This document shows, one piece after another, positions 43,565 through 49,758 of a stretch of DNA of 64,000 nucleotides. Under the pieces are notes generated by a model, which was given only the letters and a program-made list of their open reading frames with translations, was not told the origin of the DNA and made no database searches. The stretch is taken from NCBI RefSeq assembly GCF_002002925.1, contig NZ_CP019511.1, positions 3,441,001 to 3,505,000 on the forward strand, given 5' to 3'. This stretch comes from Sphingomonas sp. LM7. GTDB lineage: Bacteria; Pseudomonadota; Alphaproteobacteria; Sphingomonadales; Sphingomonadaceae. The position numbers and the translations under genes were made by a program. How positions within the stretch are numbered: position 1 is the stretch's first letter; each line of letters opens with the position of its first letter.

Positions 43565-44090
43565 TGACTTCATTCTCCACAGGGGCCGGTCCGTTGGCCG
43601 GGGCCTCGACTTGCTTATCGCGCACGAACAGGGCGCGGATCAACAGGATCAGCACGCCGACGGTAATCGCCGCATCGGCGACATTGAAGACCAAAAACGG
43701 GCGCCAGGTCCCGAAATGCAGATCGGCGAAATCGACGACATAGCCGAGACGCGTCCGATCGAGGATATTCCCGAGCGCGCCGCCGAGCACGAGGCCGAGC
43801 GCGGCGACATCGGGCTTCTTCTGCTCGCGCAGCATCCACCACAAGACGCCCGCGGCGATCGCCCCGGTCAGCGCGACCAGCAGCCAGCGCATCGTCGTGC
43901 CCGTCGCCGGAAGCAGCCCCAGCGACACGCCGACATTCTTGACGAAGCGCAGGTCGAAGATCGGCAGCACGGTCAGCGACGCGTCCTGCACGTTGAGCCC
44001 CAGCGGCCCGGTGACGTAATATTTGGTGCCCTGGTCGATCAGGAACACAAAGGCCGCGACGAGCAGCCCGATCCAGCGAATCTTCATCAA
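43557..44090 (-). CDS. lspA: lipoprotein signal peptidase
   Basis: A 177-residue integral membrane aspartyl protease that removes lipoprotein signal peptides. Four membrane helices are evident; catalytic Asp residues are in NILDRTRLGYVVDF and FNVADAAITVG. The early block VFLIDQGTKYYV is typical. The ATG overlaps the ileS stop (ATGA). The order ileS-lspA is conserved in many bacteria. The 25 extra residues at the C-terminus are Pro/Asn-rich and probably cytoplasmic. Confidence 0.96.
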   Translation of the reverse strand: MMKIRWIGLLVAAFVFLIDQGTKYYVTGPLGLNVQDASLTVLPIFDLRFVKNVGVSLGLLPATGTTMRWLLVALTGAIAAGVLWWMLREQKKPDVAALGLVLGGALGNILDRTRLGYVVDFADLHFGTWRPFLVFNVADAAITVGVLILLIRALFVRDKQVEAPANGPAPVENEVNA

Positions 44091-47044
44091 TCAACCACCT
44101 TGGCGCAGCGGTCGCACAGCAAACCGTCATGCGCAACTTCGGGAAGATGCCGCCAGCATCGGCCGCATTTATGGCGCTGCGTGGGCGTAACCGTGACGCT
44201 GTCGCCGGGCGTGACTTTCGATACGATGAACAGCTCGGCAAGATCGTCGCCCGACGCCGGCAAGTCCCGCGCAGTCACTTCGGCCTCGAGGCTGGAGCGG
44301 ATTGCCTTTTCGCGGCGATAGGGCTCGATCGCCTCGGTCACTTGCACGCGCAGCGCCCGGATCGCCGACCAGTCGGCAGTCGTCGCCGCGCCTTCGGGCA
44401 GCACCGGCCAGTCGAGCAGGTGGACCGAACCGTCCTCGCTCGGGAAGCGCGCCTGCCACACTTCCTCGGCGGTGAAGCTGAGGATCGGCGCGGCATAGCG
44501 GACCAGCGCATGGAACAGCGTGTCGAGCACGGTGCGGTAGGCGCGGCGCTTCGGATCCGTGGCGGCATCGCAATACAGCGAGTCCTTGCGAATATCGAAG
44601 AAGAAGGCCGAGAGGTCTTCATTGGCGAAATCGGTGAGCGCGCGGCTGTAGCGGTTGAACTCGAAATCGTTCGCGGCCGCCTTGAGCTCGGCATCGAGCT
44701 CGGCGAGCCTGGCGAGGATATAGCGTTCGAGCTCGGGCATCTCGGCGACGGGGAGCCTTTCGGACTCTTCGAAGCCTTCGAGCGCGCCGAGCAGATAGCG
44801 GAAGGTGTTGCGCAGCTTGCGATAGGTGTCGCCGGTGCCGGCGAGCACTTCCTTGCCGATGCGGACGTCCTCGAAATAATCGGTCTGCGCGACCCACAAA
44901 CGGAGGATGTCCGCGCCGCTCTCGGTGATGACCTTGAGTGGATCGACGCCGTTGCCCTTGGCTTTGGACATCTTGGTGCCATCGGCGGCGAGCGCGAAGC
45001 CGTGGGTGAGGACGGCGCCATAAGGCGCACGACCGCGGGTGCCGCACGATTCGAGCAACGATGACTGGAACCAGCCGCGATGCTGGTCCGAGCCTTCGAG
45101 ATAGAGGTCGGCGCGAACGCCTTCGCCATAGCGCGCCTCGACCACGAAGGCGTGGGTCGAGCCGGAGTCGAACCACACGTCGAGAATGTCGGTGATCACC
45201 TCGTAATCGGCGAGGGTGTAGCGCTCGCCGAGCAGCGTCTGATGATCGGCCTGGAACCACGCATCGGCGCCGCCATTGGTGAAGGCCTGCAGGATGCGCG
45301 CGTTGACCTCGGGGTCGCGGAGATAGTCGCCGGTCGCGCGGTTGACGTAGAGCGCGATCGGCACGCCCCACGCGCGCTGGCGGCTGATCACCCAGTCCGG
45401 GCGGCCTTCGACCATCGAGCGGATGCGGTTGATCGAGCGCTCGGGCACCCAGCGGGTGGTCTCGATGGCATCGAGCGCGATGCCGCGGAGGGTGGCGGCA
45501 TTATCTCCCTCTCCCCTTGTGGGAGAGGGAGGGAGCGGCGAAGCCGCGGAAGGGTGAGGGGGAGTGAGACTCATGTCCCCCTCATCCTTCCCACTCGCTG
45601 ACGCGAGCGGGCCCCTTCCTTCTCCCACAAGGGGAGAAGGAGTTGGCGTATCCATCGGGATGAACCATTGCGGGGTCGCCCGGAAGATGATCTTGGCCTT
45701 GCTCCGCCAGCTGTGCGGATAGCTGTGCGCGAAATCGTCCGACGCGGCGAGCAGCGCGCCGGCTTCGCGCAGGTCGGTGCAGATCGGGCCGTCGCTCGCG
45801 ACGAACTTCTTGTTGATCACCGAACCCTGGCCGCCGAGCCACAGCCAGTCGGCGCGGTACATCCCCGCGCCGTCGACTGCGAACACCGGATCGATGCCGT
45901 GCGCCTTGCACAGCAGGAAGTCGTCCTCGCCATGATCGGGCGCCATATGGACGAGGCCGGTGCCGGCATCGGTGGTGACGAAGTCGCCGGGCAGGAACGG
46001 GCGCGGCCTGGCGAAGAAGCCGCCGAGATGGTGCATCGGGTGGCGTGCGACGGCGCCGGCTAGGTCTGAGCCTTTGCCGCGCCAGACAAAGTCCGACACG
46101 CTATCGAGCTGGAAGCTCGACCGGGCACGAAACTCGTCGAGCAGTTGGCCCGCGATCAGCACCACACCCTGCCAGACGGTATCTAATTGGTCAGGAGAGG
46201 TGACCAAACCGACACCCGGCTTGCGCATATACTGCCGCCCGCGCACTGCGACGTACTCAACCTCAGGCCCATAGGCGAGCGCCTGGTTCACCGGGATCGT
46301 CCACGGCGTGGTCGTCCAGATCACCGCATGCGCGCCGACCAGCTCGGGCGCGTTCGGCGCCTCGACGATCTCGAACGCCACGTCGATCTGCGTCGACACG
46401 ACGTCCTCATATTCGACCTCGGCCTCGGCCAGCGCGGTCTTCTCGACCGGGGACCACATCACCGGCTTGGCGCCGCGATAGAGCTGGCCGCTCTCGGCGA
46501 ACTTGAGCAATTCGCCGGCGATGATCGCCTCGCTCTGATAGTTCATCGTCAGGTACGGCGTGCCCCAGTCGCCCATCACCCCGAGCCGCTCGAACTGGCC
46601 GCGCTGCACGGCCACCCATTTCTCGGCATAGGCGCGGCATTCGGCGCGGAAGGCGACGGGGTCGACTTCGTCCTTGTTGAGCTTCTTGGCGCGATAGGCC
46701 TCCTCGACCTTCCACTCGATCGGCAGGCCGTGGCAGTCCCAGCCGGGAACATAGGGCGCGTCCTTGCCGAGCAAGGTCTGGCTTCGCACGACGATGTCCT
46801 TGAGGATCTTGTTCATCGCGTGGCCCATGTGAATGTCGCCATTCGCATAAGGCGGGCCGTCATGGAGCAGGAAGGTCTCGCGGCCGGCGCGGGCCTCGCG
46901 CAGCTTCTGGTAGAGCCCGATCTTCGCCCAGCGTTCGAGGATCGCCGGCTCCTTGGCGGCGAGGCCGGCCTTCATCGGGAAATCGGTCTTCGGCAGGAAG
47001 ACGGTGTCGCGCCAGTCGCGCGGGGATTCGGTGGTGTCGGTCAT
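44087..47044 (-). CDS. ileS: isoleucyl-tRNA synthetase with in-frame repeat insertion
   Basis: A 985-residue class I synthetase charging tRNA(Ile). HIGH-type motif GDIHMGHAMNKIL lies near residue 65, KMSKAKGN near 688, and a C-terminal zinc finger is CGRCWRHLPE...CDRC. The CP1 editing domain is present. Between WFIPMD (about 467) and TLRGIALDAIE (about 518) about 46 residues are encoded by a palindromic repeat (PTPSPLVGEGRGPLAS at one end, PPSPTRGEGDN at the other), absent from other IleRS proteins. The frame is intact, so the enzyme must tolerate it. ATG 47044 begins the conserved sequence. The stop overlaps lspA. Confidence 0.96.
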   Translation of the reverse strand: MTDTTESPRDWRDTVFLPKTDFPMKAGLAAKEPAILERWAKIGLYQKLREARAGRETFLLHDGPPYANGDIHMGHAMNKILKDIVVRSQTLLGKDAPYVPGWDCHGLPIEWKVEEAYRAKKLNKDEVDPVAFRAECRAYAEKWVAVQRGQFERLGVMGDWGTPYLTMNYQSEAIIAGELLKFAESGQLYRGAKPVMWSPVEKTALAEAEVEYEDVVSTQIDVAFEIVEAPNAPELVGAHAVIWTTTPWTIPVNQALAYGPEVEYVAVRGRQYMRKPGVGLVTSPDQLDTVWQGVVLIAGQLLDEFRARSSFQLDSVSDFVWRGKGSDLAGAVARHPMHHLGGFFARPRPFLPGDFVTTDAGTGLVHMAPDHGEDDFLLCKAHGIDPVFAVDGAGMYRADWLWLGGQGSVINKKFVASDGPICTDLREAGALLAASDDFAHSYPHSWRSKAKIIFRATPQWFIPMDTPTPSPLVGEGRGPLASASGKDEGDMSLTPPHPSAASPLPPSPTRGEGDNAATLRGIALDAIETTRWVPERSINRIRSMVEGRPDWVISRQRAWGVPIALYVNRATGDYLRDPEVNARILQAFTNGGADAWFQADHQTLLGERYTLADYEVITDILDVWFDSGSTHAFVVEARYGEGVRADLYLEGSDQHRGWFQSSLLESCGTRGRAPYGAVLTHGFALAADGTKMSKAKGNGVDPLKVITESGADILRLWVAQTDYFEDVRIGKEVLAGTGDTYRKLRNTFRYLLGALEGFEESERLPVAEMPELERYILARLAELDAELKAAANDFEFNRYSRALTDFANEDLSAFFFDIRKDSLYCDAATDPKRRAYRTVLDTLFHALVRYAAPILSFTAEEVWQARFPSEDGSVHLLDWPVLPEGAATTADWSAIRALRVQVTEAIEPYRREKAIRSSLEAEVTARDLPASGDDLAELFIVSKVTPGDSVTVTPTQRHKCGRCWRHLPEVAHDGLLCDRCAKVVD
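45505..45642. repeat. palindromic repeat, family C, inserted in frame in ileS
   Basis: 138 bp, exactly 46 codons. The ends are inverted copies of CTCCCTCTCCCCTTGTGGGA (left) and, on the right, sequence whose complement reads CTCCTTCTCCCCTTGTGGGA. Inside, GGAAGGGTGAGGGGGA and TCCCCCTCATCCTTCC form a second inverted repeat. The same blocks make up the intergenic copy at 48397-48591. All three conditions for an in-frame insertion are met: length divisible by three, no stop, and conserved synthetase sequence on both sides. Confidence 0.9.
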
Positions 47045-47432: not shown

Positions 47433-48359
47433 CTAGAGCGCGAGCACCGCGCGCGCCTTTGCGGCATCGGCGTCCATCTGGACCTTGAGCGCGTCGAGTG
47501 AATCGAACTTCGCCTCGGGGCGGAGATAGTCGATCAGCGCGACTTCGATCACCTGATCGTAGAGGTCGCCCTCGAATTCGAAGAAATAGCTTTCGAGCAG
47601 TTCGATCGGCGGATCGAAGCTCGGGCGGATGCCGAGATTGGCGACGCCGTCCAGCACGCGCCCGTCGGCCAGCCGGCCGCGCACGGCGTAGATGCCGTAG
47701 GCAGGGCGCAGATAATTGGCGAGGTCCATGTTGGCGGTGGGATAGCCGAGCGTGCGGCCGAGCTTGGCGCCGTGCTGGACCGCGCCGGCGATCGCGAAGG
47801 GGCGCGTCAGCAGCTTGGCTGCGCCGCGCGGATCGCCGTCGCGCAGATAGCGACGGATGCGGCTGGAGGAGACGGTCTCGCCGTCGAGCGTCACCGGGGC
47901 GACGACTTGCGCGGAATAGCCGAGTTCTTCGCCCAGCGCGGCGAGCATCGTCACATCGCCTTCGCGGCCCTTGCCGAAAGTGAAGTCGTTGCCGGTGACC
48001 ACCCCGCCCGCGCCGAGGATCGCGCCGAGCTGGGCTTGGGCGAAGCCGCGCGCGCTGAGCCCCGCCAGTGCGGCGTCGAAGGTGAAGACGAGCATCGCGT
48101 CGACGCCCGCGGCGGCGAGCAGGCGTGCGCGCTGGTCGAGCGTGGTGAGGCGGAAATGCTCGGTCTGGGGCTGGAAATAGCGCTTGGGATGCGGATCGAA
48201 GGTGGCGACGATTGCCGGACGGCCCTGCGCGCGCGCACGTTCGACTGCGCCGCCGACCACTGCCTGGTGGCCGAGGTGAAACCCATCGAAATTGCCGAGC
48301 GCGACGATCCCGCCGCGAAGATGCGCCGGAAGCGGCGAGCCGTTGTCCAGTCGCTCCAT
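47433..48359 (-). CDS. ribF: bifunctional riboflavin kinase/FAD synthetase
   Basis: A 308-residue enzyme making FMN and FAD from riboflavin. The N-terminal adenylyltransferase (about 15-180) has GIVALGNFDGFHLGHQAVVG, ATFDPHPKRYFQPQTE and VVTGNDFTFGKGREGD with SSSRIRRYLRDGD. The C-terminal kinase (about 185-305) has LGYPTANMDLANYLRPAYGI, NLGIRPSFDPPIELLESYFF and DLYDQVIEVALIDYLRPEAK. ATG 48359 is the conserved start. It precedes ileS across the 388-bp repeat-bearing gap. A composite repeat lies just upstream, so the promoter must be within or beyond it. Confidence 0.97.
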   Translation of the reverse strand: MERLDNGSPLPAHLRGGIVALGNFDGFHLGHQAVVGGAVERARAQGRPAIVATFDPHPKRYFQPQTEHFRLTTLDQRARLLAAAGVDAMLVFTFDAALAGLSARGFAQAQLGAILGAGGVVTGNDFTFGKGREGDVTMLAALGEELGYSAQVVAPVTLDGETVSSSRIRRYLRDGDPRGAAKLLTRPFAIAGAVQHGAKLGRTLGYPTANMDLANYLRPAYGIYAVRGRLADGRVLDGVANLGIRPSFDPPIELLESYFFEFEGDLYDQVIEVALIDYLRPEAKFDSLDALKVQMDADAAKARAVLAL

Positions 48360-48396
48360 GGCGGGGGCTATAGGGGGGGGAAAGCCCGACTGAAAG

Positions 48397-48591
48397 CCCT
48401 CTCCCCTTGTGGGAGAGAGTGCTGAGGCCGGCCATGCCCCCGGCATGGCCTAAACAGCGCGGGGCGCTGTTTACCTCAGCACTGGAGCCGATGAAATCGG
48501 CGGAAGGGTGAGGGGGAGAGACTCCGTCCCCCTCATCCTTCCCCCTCGCTTCGCGAGCGGCCCCTTCCTTCTCCCACAAGGGGAGAAGGAG
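48397..48591. repeat. palindromic repeat, family C, composite intergenic copy
   Basis: 195 bp with the same ends as the ileS element (CCCTCTCCCCTTGTGGGAGA left; CTCCTTCTCCCCTTGTGGGA on the complementary strand at the right) and the same GGAAGGGTGAGGGGGA/TCCCCCTCATCCTTCC core. An extra section is nested near the left end: AGTGCTGAGG (48418-48427) and CCTCAGCACT (48474-48483) enclose two more hairpins. The right end touches the dipeptidase stop codon. Confidence 0.85.
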
Positions 48592-49758
48592 CTAGTCGGG
48601 CACGATCCCCGCGCGGAGCACGCGCAGGACATTGCCGCCCATCACCTTGCGGATATCGCCGGGGGTGAAGCCGCGATCGACCAGCGCCTGCGTCACCGCC
48701 GCCAGCTGCGCCGTATCGAAGCTGGTCGTCACGGCGCCGTCGAAGTCCGAGCCGAGCCCGACATGGTCGATCCCGACCAGGTCGCGGACATGCGCGATCG
48801 CGCGGGCGATGGCCTCGGGCGCAGTCGAGCAGAGCGCGGCGTCCCAATAGCCGATGCCGATGACGCCGCCGGTCTTCGCCACGCCGCGGATTTCGGCGTC
48901 GGTCAGGTTACGGTTGACCTTGCAGGTCGCCTGGACGCCGCCATGGCTGGAGACCACCGGGCGCCTGGCCATCGCCAGCACTTCGGCGACCGTCTGGTGG
49001 CTCGAATGGGCGATGTCGACGATCATGCCGAGCTTCTCCATCCGCGCGACCACCTGGCGCCCGAGCGGGGTGAGGCCGCCCTTGTTCACGCCGTGCATCG
49101 ATCCGGCGACGTCGTTGTCGAAGAAATGCGCGAGCCCGGCCATGCGGAAGCCTGCGGAATGGAGCGTGTCGAGATTGGCGAGCTTGCCCTCGATGTCCTG
49201 CAGGCCCTCGACCGAGAGCATGCCGCCGACGATCTTGCGGCCCGCGGCGCGATCGGCGAGCAGCGCGTCGAGCTCGGCAGGGGTGTGGATCACGCGGAGC
49301 TTGCCGTCGGATCCCGCCGCGGCGCGATCGAGCTTGCGCGCGTGCCACAGCGAGCGTTCGAGCAGCGACGTCCAGGTCCGCGGCGGCTGAAGCTGTGCGA
49401 CGGTGAGCAGCGTCAGCGCGTCGGTGTCGGCGCCGTTCGAATCGTAATTCTGTCCCTTGGGGGTCTTGGTCACCGACGAGAAGATCTGCAGCGCGACATT
49501 GCCTTCGATCAGCCGCGGCAAATCGACCTGGCCGCGTTCGGCGCGGTCGAGCAGGCTGCGGCGCCAGAGCAGGGTGTCGCCGTGCATGTCGGCGATCTGG
49601 AGCGAGGCGTGGAGCGCGCGGGTCTGCGCGGTGATCGTGGGGAGCGGGCCGGGGACGACCTTGTTCATCCCTGCCTCGACGATCGGCGGGGCGATGCCGA
49701 AGAAGCCGATGCCGGCGAGGAGCAGCACCGCGGCGAGGGCCCACAGCCATTTCTTCAT
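48592..49758 (-). CDS. membrane dipeptidase (M19, renal-dipeptidase family)
   Basis: A 388-residue zinc dipeptidase with one N-terminal membrane helix (about 4-24, LWALAAVLLLAGIGFFGIAP), so it probably faces the periplasm. Metal-site residues appear in QIADMHGDTLLWRR (HxD), the bridging Glu in GGMLSVEGLQDIEG, His in IVDIAHSSHQTVAEVLAM and VVSSHGGVQATC, and Asp in IDHVGLGSDFDGAV. Family members cleave dipeptides, including D-amino-acid-containing ones. The ATG overlaps the folA stop (ATGA). The stop is immediately followed by the family C repeat. Confidence 0.94.
   Translation of the reverse strand: MKKWLWALAAVLLLAGIGFFGIAPPIVEAGMNKVVPGPLPTITAQTRALHASLQIADMHGDTLLWRRSLLDRAERGQVDLPRLIEGNVALQIFSSVTKTPKGQNYDSNGADTDALTLLTVAQLQPPRTWTSLLERSLWHARKLDRAAAGSDGKLRVIHTPAELDALLADRAAGRKIVGGMLSVEGLQDIEGKLANLDTLHSAGFRMAGLAHFFDNDVAGSMHGVNKGGLTPLGRQVVARMEKLGMIVDIAHSSHQTVAEVLAMARRPVVSSHGGVQATCKVNRNLTDAEIRGVAKTGGVIGIGYWDAALCSTAPEAIARAIAHVRDLVGIDHVGLGSDFDGAVTTSFDTAQLAAVTQALVDRGFTPGDIRKVMGGNVLRVLRAGIVPD

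Follow-up and report, generated by a model that had tools for sequence, protein, structure and literature searches.

In-frame palindromic repeats of several families at one loop of isoleucyl-tRNA synthetase in sphingomonads

The gene for isoleucyl-tRNA synthetase (IleRS), ileS, of Sphingomonas sp. LM7 contains a palindromic repeat inside its coding sequence. How does a dispersed repeat come to lie in frame in a conserved enzyme, and is LM7 alone in this? We analysed the locus within a 64,000-nt stretch of contig NZ_CP019511.1 (positions 3,441,001 to 3,505,000; termed the window) and compared it with the corresponding genes of relatives.

The repeat in ileS of strain LM7

The relevant features of the window are as follows.

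44087..47044, minus strand: ileS, isoleucyl-tRNA synthetase, 985 residues from the likely ATG (MTDTTESPRDW), with ATG and stop codon both read
to 47278, minus strand: longer ileS open frame beginning with GTG
45494..45652, minus strand: variable loop of 53 codons (D...A) between WFIPM and TLRGIALDAIE; residues 468-512 have pLDDT below 50
45505..45642, no strand given: 138-bp palindromic repeat of family T1 (label coined here)
45505..45536, plus strand: outer inverted-repeat arm, 32 nt, 88% complementary to 45611..45642
45611..45642, plus strand: outer inverted-repeat arm, partner of 45505..45536
45548..45563, plus strand: inner inverted-repeat arm, 16 nt, 94% complementary to 45576..45591
45576..45591, plus strand: inner inverted-repeat arm, partner of 45548..45563
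48500..48591, plus strand: T1-family copy flanked by open frames 47433-48446 and 48592-49758; identity to element positions 42-138 is 92%

The element is a genuine palindromic repeat of the genome and lies in frame in ileS. A preliminary description of the locus had given it 138 bp, 46 codons, no stop codon and inverted ends, and all four were borne out by the minus-strand frame and by the two pairs of arms. The intergenic copy claimed ~3 kb away was also found (48500-48591). The coding strand of the loop showed folding z of -10.2 and -9.7 relative to shuffles in two runs. BLAST of the element against its own 4.16-Mb single-contig genome gave 45 matches, many of which are second strands or parts of one site. 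A second full-length ileS was absent from the matches listed in this genome, down to E ~1e-18. An assembly error at 45505-45642 is unlikely, because the same kind of insert occurs in many other assemblies.

The element is short and multicopy, has terminal inverted repeats and lacks an internal transposase, as expected of a MITE. Its 138-bp length differs from the 20-40 bp of a tagged REP unit; GTAG occurs on neither strand, and the single CGTC is internal (position 96, minus strand). A search for the RAYT/Y1 transposase (PF01797) gave no match in the LM7 genome and was positive in 5 of 14 control genomes, so a RAYT-driven REP in LM7 is unsupported.

The open frame and conserved flanks suggest that the repeat has become protein, as the preliminary description proposed. 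Tryptic peptides of the insert deduced from the translation are GPLASASGK, DEGDMSLTPPHPSAASPLPPSPTR and GEGDNAATLR. An AlphaFold2 model of IleRS (983 residues, 35 sequences, mean pLDDT 75.3, pTM 0.70) predicted the insert to be disordered: residues 468-512 had pLDDT <50, as did other segments of the model, some of them conserved. In the model the insert falls between a strand (457-461) and a helix (517-527), and its earlier placement in the "catalytic core" was loose. We take the insertion site to be the point at which the polypeptide returns from the editing domain to the catalytic domain, presumably a long way along the sequence from the HIGH-like and KMSKS-like motifs. Among solved structures the best match is Priestia IleRS (8c9e), in which six residues (415-420) stand for query residues 462-519.

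The IleRS loop across relatives

ileS was found in 61 of 61 genomes of relatives searched (LM7 included). A further set of named loci consisted of the best 80 of 590 confirmed. A search of the genus covered 295 genomes, 291 with an ileS match; loci were drawn from the matches listed, leaving out 10 of these, each with a 952-residue frame like others taken. In total, 259 loci were examined (140 from searches, plus 20 and 99 fetched), including named strains among the host species. Our parser read 253 of them, giving 233 distinct genes. Five of the six unparsed loci were in frame by inspection (L147, L154, L173, L076, L217). The sixth, L163, has a frameshift within the insert that is probably a sequencing or assembly error in its 88%-complete, single-contig genome. 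Because the parser required an open frame, the statement on frame rests on the full set of examined loci, of which 258 of 259 keep the frame and have no stop codon. Of the five readings that are not used in the ileS palindromes, on average only 51% were open.

Loop length in the 233 genes was ≤9 residues in 33, 10-23 in 26 and ≥24 in 174. The segment had been described as continuous in other IleRS enzymes. This held outside the family, where 12 of 13 loci from other families of the order (13 fetched, of 24 genomes) had a three-residue loop and one had 21 residues. It failed within sphingomonads, where most of the genes examined carry an insert at this position. In most of the genus the loop is of variable sequence and considerable length, having been filled many times by different repeat families. 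Comparison with relatives also ruled out a strain-specific one-off, since they carry inserts at the same loop. Nearly the same peptide as that of LM7 was found only in a few relatives (L030, L079, L168 and P0013, the last from S. naasensis); most others carry unrelated peptides at the site. The refuting outcome named in the preliminary description, the same 46 residues in IleRS of distant sphingomonads, thus did not occur. Descent from ancient protein sequence was rejected for the palindromic inserts: those checked belong to dispersed repeats, and closely related species have different ones. The preliminary interpretation as a whole is thus partly supported.

Strongly palindromic DNA, defined as folding z ≤ -3.5 relative to dinucleotide shuffles, was present at the loop (WFIPM^TLR) in 79 of 233 distinct genes, equal to 79 of 174 long inserts. 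None of 174 control segments of equal length, taken from other parts of these genes, reached this threshold, the lowest z being -3.3. The larger part, 154 of 233 genes, had no strong palindrome, including 95 whose loops were long (≥24 residues). Some of the loops without a strong palindrome contain halves or decayed copies, and others have no visible link to a repeat.

The palindromes fall into at least five families: T1 (that of LM7), AB, C, D and E, plus a few others. Families were assigned from similarity clusters and peptide motifs, with letters coined here; AB covers two related stems, and E and T1 each comprise subfamilies. Families AB, D, C and E (one genome each) are dispersed repeats in their own genomes: the ileS inserts of G002, G026, G024 and G003 gave 79, 32, 86 and 32 own-genome matches, respectively, many being two strands of one site. 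AB copies in G002 have sharp ends, beginning near TTAAGC and ending near GCTTAA. The family C stem in ileS is read in two frames (CTC CCG and TCC CGC), and related T1 stems differ too. Reading of family E in several frames was rejected, because the cases proved to be different subfamilies.

On a FastTree tree of 225 IleRS proteins with the insert removed (77 palindromic, 148 not), the labels required at least 62 changes; this number pools gains and losses, and the tree has no support values and carries labels taken from peptide motifs. Near-identical genes hold different inserts. S. pokkalii (L079, T1) and S. azotifigens (L081, C) have flanks 96.6% identical and inserts of different families, and L042 (AB) has flanks 97.0% identical to those of L098, which lacks a strong palindrome; flank identities of such pairs extend 450 nt upstream and slip register in the variable editing-domain loop, which distorts the values of some pairs. 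One group has in common a loose tail, ELP.F...GFG..VNP; it includes loci lacking a strong palindrome (L052, L222) as well as loci whose palindromes are unrelated (L036, L207, L242, L254). L198 resembles a decayed relative of L036.

Further variation was observed in the same enzyme. In the loop of L040, one palindrome is nested within another. Loci L055 and L056 have long repeat-like inserts after ARHPM in the editing domain, a second landing place, and L067, from another family of the order, has a short repeat-like peptide after CAHPW at approximately the same place. IleRS residues ~268-320 (window ~46082-46240) differ in almost every species, mostly without recognisable repeats. Both observations on the editing domain come from the listed part of the length-variable alignment segments.

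Other host enzymes

A codon-usage test applied to the loci returned for five genomes placed 26 of 143 repeat loci inside genes, duplicates included; 124 of the 274 matches of these genomes had no locus. In LM7, where the preliminary description had suggested looking for further translated copies, the test covered 28 loci, several of them duplicates of one site, and found two host genes, ileS and GluQRS. The GluQRS insert (L018, G000:C1:3224117-3224241) is in frame and matches the ileS repeat at 74%, so T1 is present in frame in unrelated conserved genes. Families other than T1 were found in GlyRS-beta and further enzymes. Ten host frames were named by NCBIfam: GluQRS (LM7), CarA, PutA, MutL, UvrA, LeuRS (twice), MetH, GlyRS-beta and a biotin-carboxylase-like protein. 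GlyRS-beta and LeuRS each had different families at one place in two of the five genomes, and for PutA and MutL the families likewise differed between two genomes while occupying one region, with L328, L369 and L376 assigned by likeness.

GlyRS-beta was matched in 58 of 61 sampled genomes (16 unbroken, 39 split, 3 partial). When all 55 unbroken or split loci were taken, 33 of 53 parsed loci were palindromic at the GlyRS site. LM7 itself is among them, with a family D palindrome (L472, G000:C1:2000100-2001100; z -4.2). The LeuRS site is rarer. LeuRS was matched in 60 of 61 genomes, 11 of them split, and 8 of 33 parsed loci were palindromic (8 split and 25 unbroken parsed, the palindromic ones being the 8 split), a share that is overstated because all 11 split loci and 30 of 49 unbroken ones were taken.

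The insert peptide of LM7 (residues 466-513) was searched against 5.8 billion proteins. It gave 91 hits (541-1722 aa), of which 75 had a GlyRS-beta domain, 15 a class Ia synthetase domain and one neither. This lone hit outside the two synthetase types, P0048, is a protein of 1151 residues with PF20464, PF20465 and PF20473, in which 52% of the peptide is covered. With a family D peptide from GlyRS-beta, 23 of 23 hits were GlyRS-beta. A family AB peptide from CarA (proteins of 241-766 aa) gave 24 hits: 9 RecF-like, 4 CarA, 3 GlyRS-beta, 2 TrmD, 2 SufD and 4 others, named from Pfam columns and by eye. Concentration in synthetases holds for two of the peptides and not for the third (AB). The hits are 90% clusters rather than independent events, and each search used one frame and one length range. 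The RecF-like proteins with an AB insert are P0096-P0100, P0107-P0109 and P0115, the insert having one position in P0096, P0100 and P0115; in the CarA proteins P0094, P0101 and P0104 it is at one common place.

Explanations and related systems

Probably, mobile palindromes have inserted in frame in a tolerant, disordered loop of ileS, which at least five families have recolonised, and equivalent loops exist in other enzymes. A mobile, non-autonomous palindromic repeat would insert in frame in a loop able to accommodate a long disordered peptide, and in LM7 its translation would give IleRS 46 extra residues. Palindromes would insert at large, with few loops of conserved enzymes accepting the peptide. 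The IleRS loop perhaps became a landing site after it lengthened in the sphingomonad family; the families would have colonised it independently, and copies there would have decayed, taken up further palindromes or been replaced. Equivalent landing loops may exist in a small number of other conserved enzymes, above all GlyRS-beta. The data themselves show the repeat with its dispersal and frame, the shared sites, near-identical genes that hold different families, and disorder as a prediction; we infer that the peptide is translated, that the repeats are mobile, and that tolerance, not targeting or benefit, is the cause of the hotspot.

Two results are left unexplained by tolerance: the dominance of two synthetases and the slow change of the inserts. 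Tolerance alone fails to predict a host list as short as that of the LM7 peptide. In six orthologous pairs, the insert differed at 34 of 912 sites and at 8 of 216 four-fold codons, compared with 178 of 1154 four-fold codons in the flanks (Fisher p ~4e-7; flank comparison recomputed within register), so that inserts changed ~4-fold more slowly than flanking four-fold sites. Within the inserts, differences affected 14 of 662 stem sites, as against 20 of 250 loop sites (p ~1e-4). Plain neutral decay predicts neither the slow inserts nor the slower stems; however, the six pairs were picked as gap-free and >90% identical, which biases them toward slow pairs. Other insert pairs differ more (L035/L085 by 10.6%, L036/L198 by 27%).

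The slow inserts and stems would fit a selected role, a reading that we consider doubtful. An mRNA or DNA hairpin, or a disordered linker, would benefit IleRS, GlyRS-beta and a handful of other enzymes, for instance by pacing translation between domains or by regulating synthesis, and would be kept and renewed. The concentration of hosts in two synthetases and the long loops (≥24 residues) in 174 of 233 ileS genes agree with this. However, 33 of 233 genes have loops of ≤9 residues, and 95 have long loops without a strong palindrome. The peptides vary freely, and two frames are in use for family C. No pair-keeping double change occurs in the stems of these six pairs; the one double change seen there loses pairing. 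In shared inserts of close species, pN/pS was 0.25-0.94 versus 0.04-0.18 in the flanks (seven groups, one without synonymous change), indicating that the peptide is under weaker constraint. It seems similarly improbable that IleRS and GlyRS-beta are preferred, actively renewed sites at which a disordered linker encoding a hairpin is preserved at the level of the nucleic acid. If this were true, essential synthetases would obtain a common structural or regulatory module from unrelated selfish repeats.

Targeted insertion, in which the elements or a transposase recognise sequence or structure at these loci and the hotspot reflects target choice, is quite unlikely. It would account for insertion at nearly the same place whatever the family, both in IleRS and in GlyRS-beta (after VEEGIV or the like), and for new palindromes within or adjoining older loop sequence (L040, L093, L259). 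Yet the IleRS, GlyRS and LeuRS sites have no obvious common sequence by eye, the sites are common to unrelated families, and the codon-usage test placed 26 of 143 repeat loci, duplicates included, inside genes.

Unrelated inserts in near-identical ileS genes, and shared inserts more alike than flanking four-fold sites, could also arise if homologous recombination between species spread or replaced the loop, with few true insertions. This we judge very unlikely, as divergence was not clearly raised adjoining the insertion site in L079/L081 or L042/L098, and the same families occur at other sites of the same genomes. That the insert is missing from the protein, the hairpin being bypassed by ribosomes or removed, is scarcely credible: palindromes within Magnusiomyces mitochondrial genes are bypassed according to the part of PMC6649704 available to us, but bypassing would not require the stop-free frame kept by 258 of 259 ileS loci.

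Tolerance of mobile palindromes has its closest known counterparts in Rickettsia palindromic elements (RPEs) and intragenic REPs. RPEs were reportedly described by Ogata et al. in 2000 and 2002. According to the available parts of the sources, they are palindromes of ~105-150 bp in several families, lie in frame in many unrelated conserved proteins, and are neutral or slightly harmful where tested (PMC10969869, PMC2229807). The likeness drawn in the preliminary description proved apt: the LM7 repeat is a dispersed palindrome read in frame, of 138 bp with 88% complementary arms and 45 genome matches, in an ileS for which no second full-length copy was seen. The resemblance, in size, palindromic structure, several families and in-frame insertion, is architectural. 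As far as the RPE sources available to us extend, the hosts here differ in being sphingomonads, and one loop is common to several unrelated families and was filled repeatedly. At least sphingomonad family C is read in two frames, and from C and related T1 stems there is no single conserved frame and peptide per family.

We assume PMC3733652 to be the paper of Di Nocera et al. (2013). In the part consulted, REP families with GTAG or CGTC tags are described in S. wittichii and S. alaskensis, REPs are defined as 20-40 bp, and some lie within genes, including tRNA synthetases of E. lithoralis and S. alaskensis (PMC3733652). Different REPs occur at approximately the same recB site in two Xanthomonas, and in other genes of that category at different sites (PMC3733652). 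The sphingomonad palindromes, in contrast, use one site across a bacterial family. ERIC/RU-1, YPAL/RU-2 and Correia elements are likewise non-autonomous stem-loop repeats (~100-200 bp) that form in-frame gene fusions; the accessible portion of that source mentions no shared hotspot in essential enzymes for such MITEs with open frames (PMC2229807). In Nematomorpha mitochondria, long inverted repeats within translated genes are gained and lost between species, with some positions shared, as seen here; however, both arms encode conserved residues there according to the portion consulted (PMC6649704), whereas the sphingomonad palindrome is additional and absent from some relatives. Our literature searches, outside which lay most subscription papers and supplements, found no shared multi-family hotspot in IleRS or GlyRS-beta. 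As far as they reach, the hotspot is new; the host list in Additional file 3 of PMC3733652 may hold an IleRS case.

The sphingomonad loci constitute a natural replicated experiment, in which unrelated repeats have been tried against the same conserved enzymes in many species. They mark enzyme loops able to take up tens of additional residues. Whether protein-coding repeats are junk or useful becomes directly testable, given several families, relatives in which the loop is empty or filled, and hosts that include named strains. The loci also warn against taking peptides of this kind in databases for domains when they are repeats. The genes concerned appear to preserve a record of the places at which insertions are tolerated in nature.
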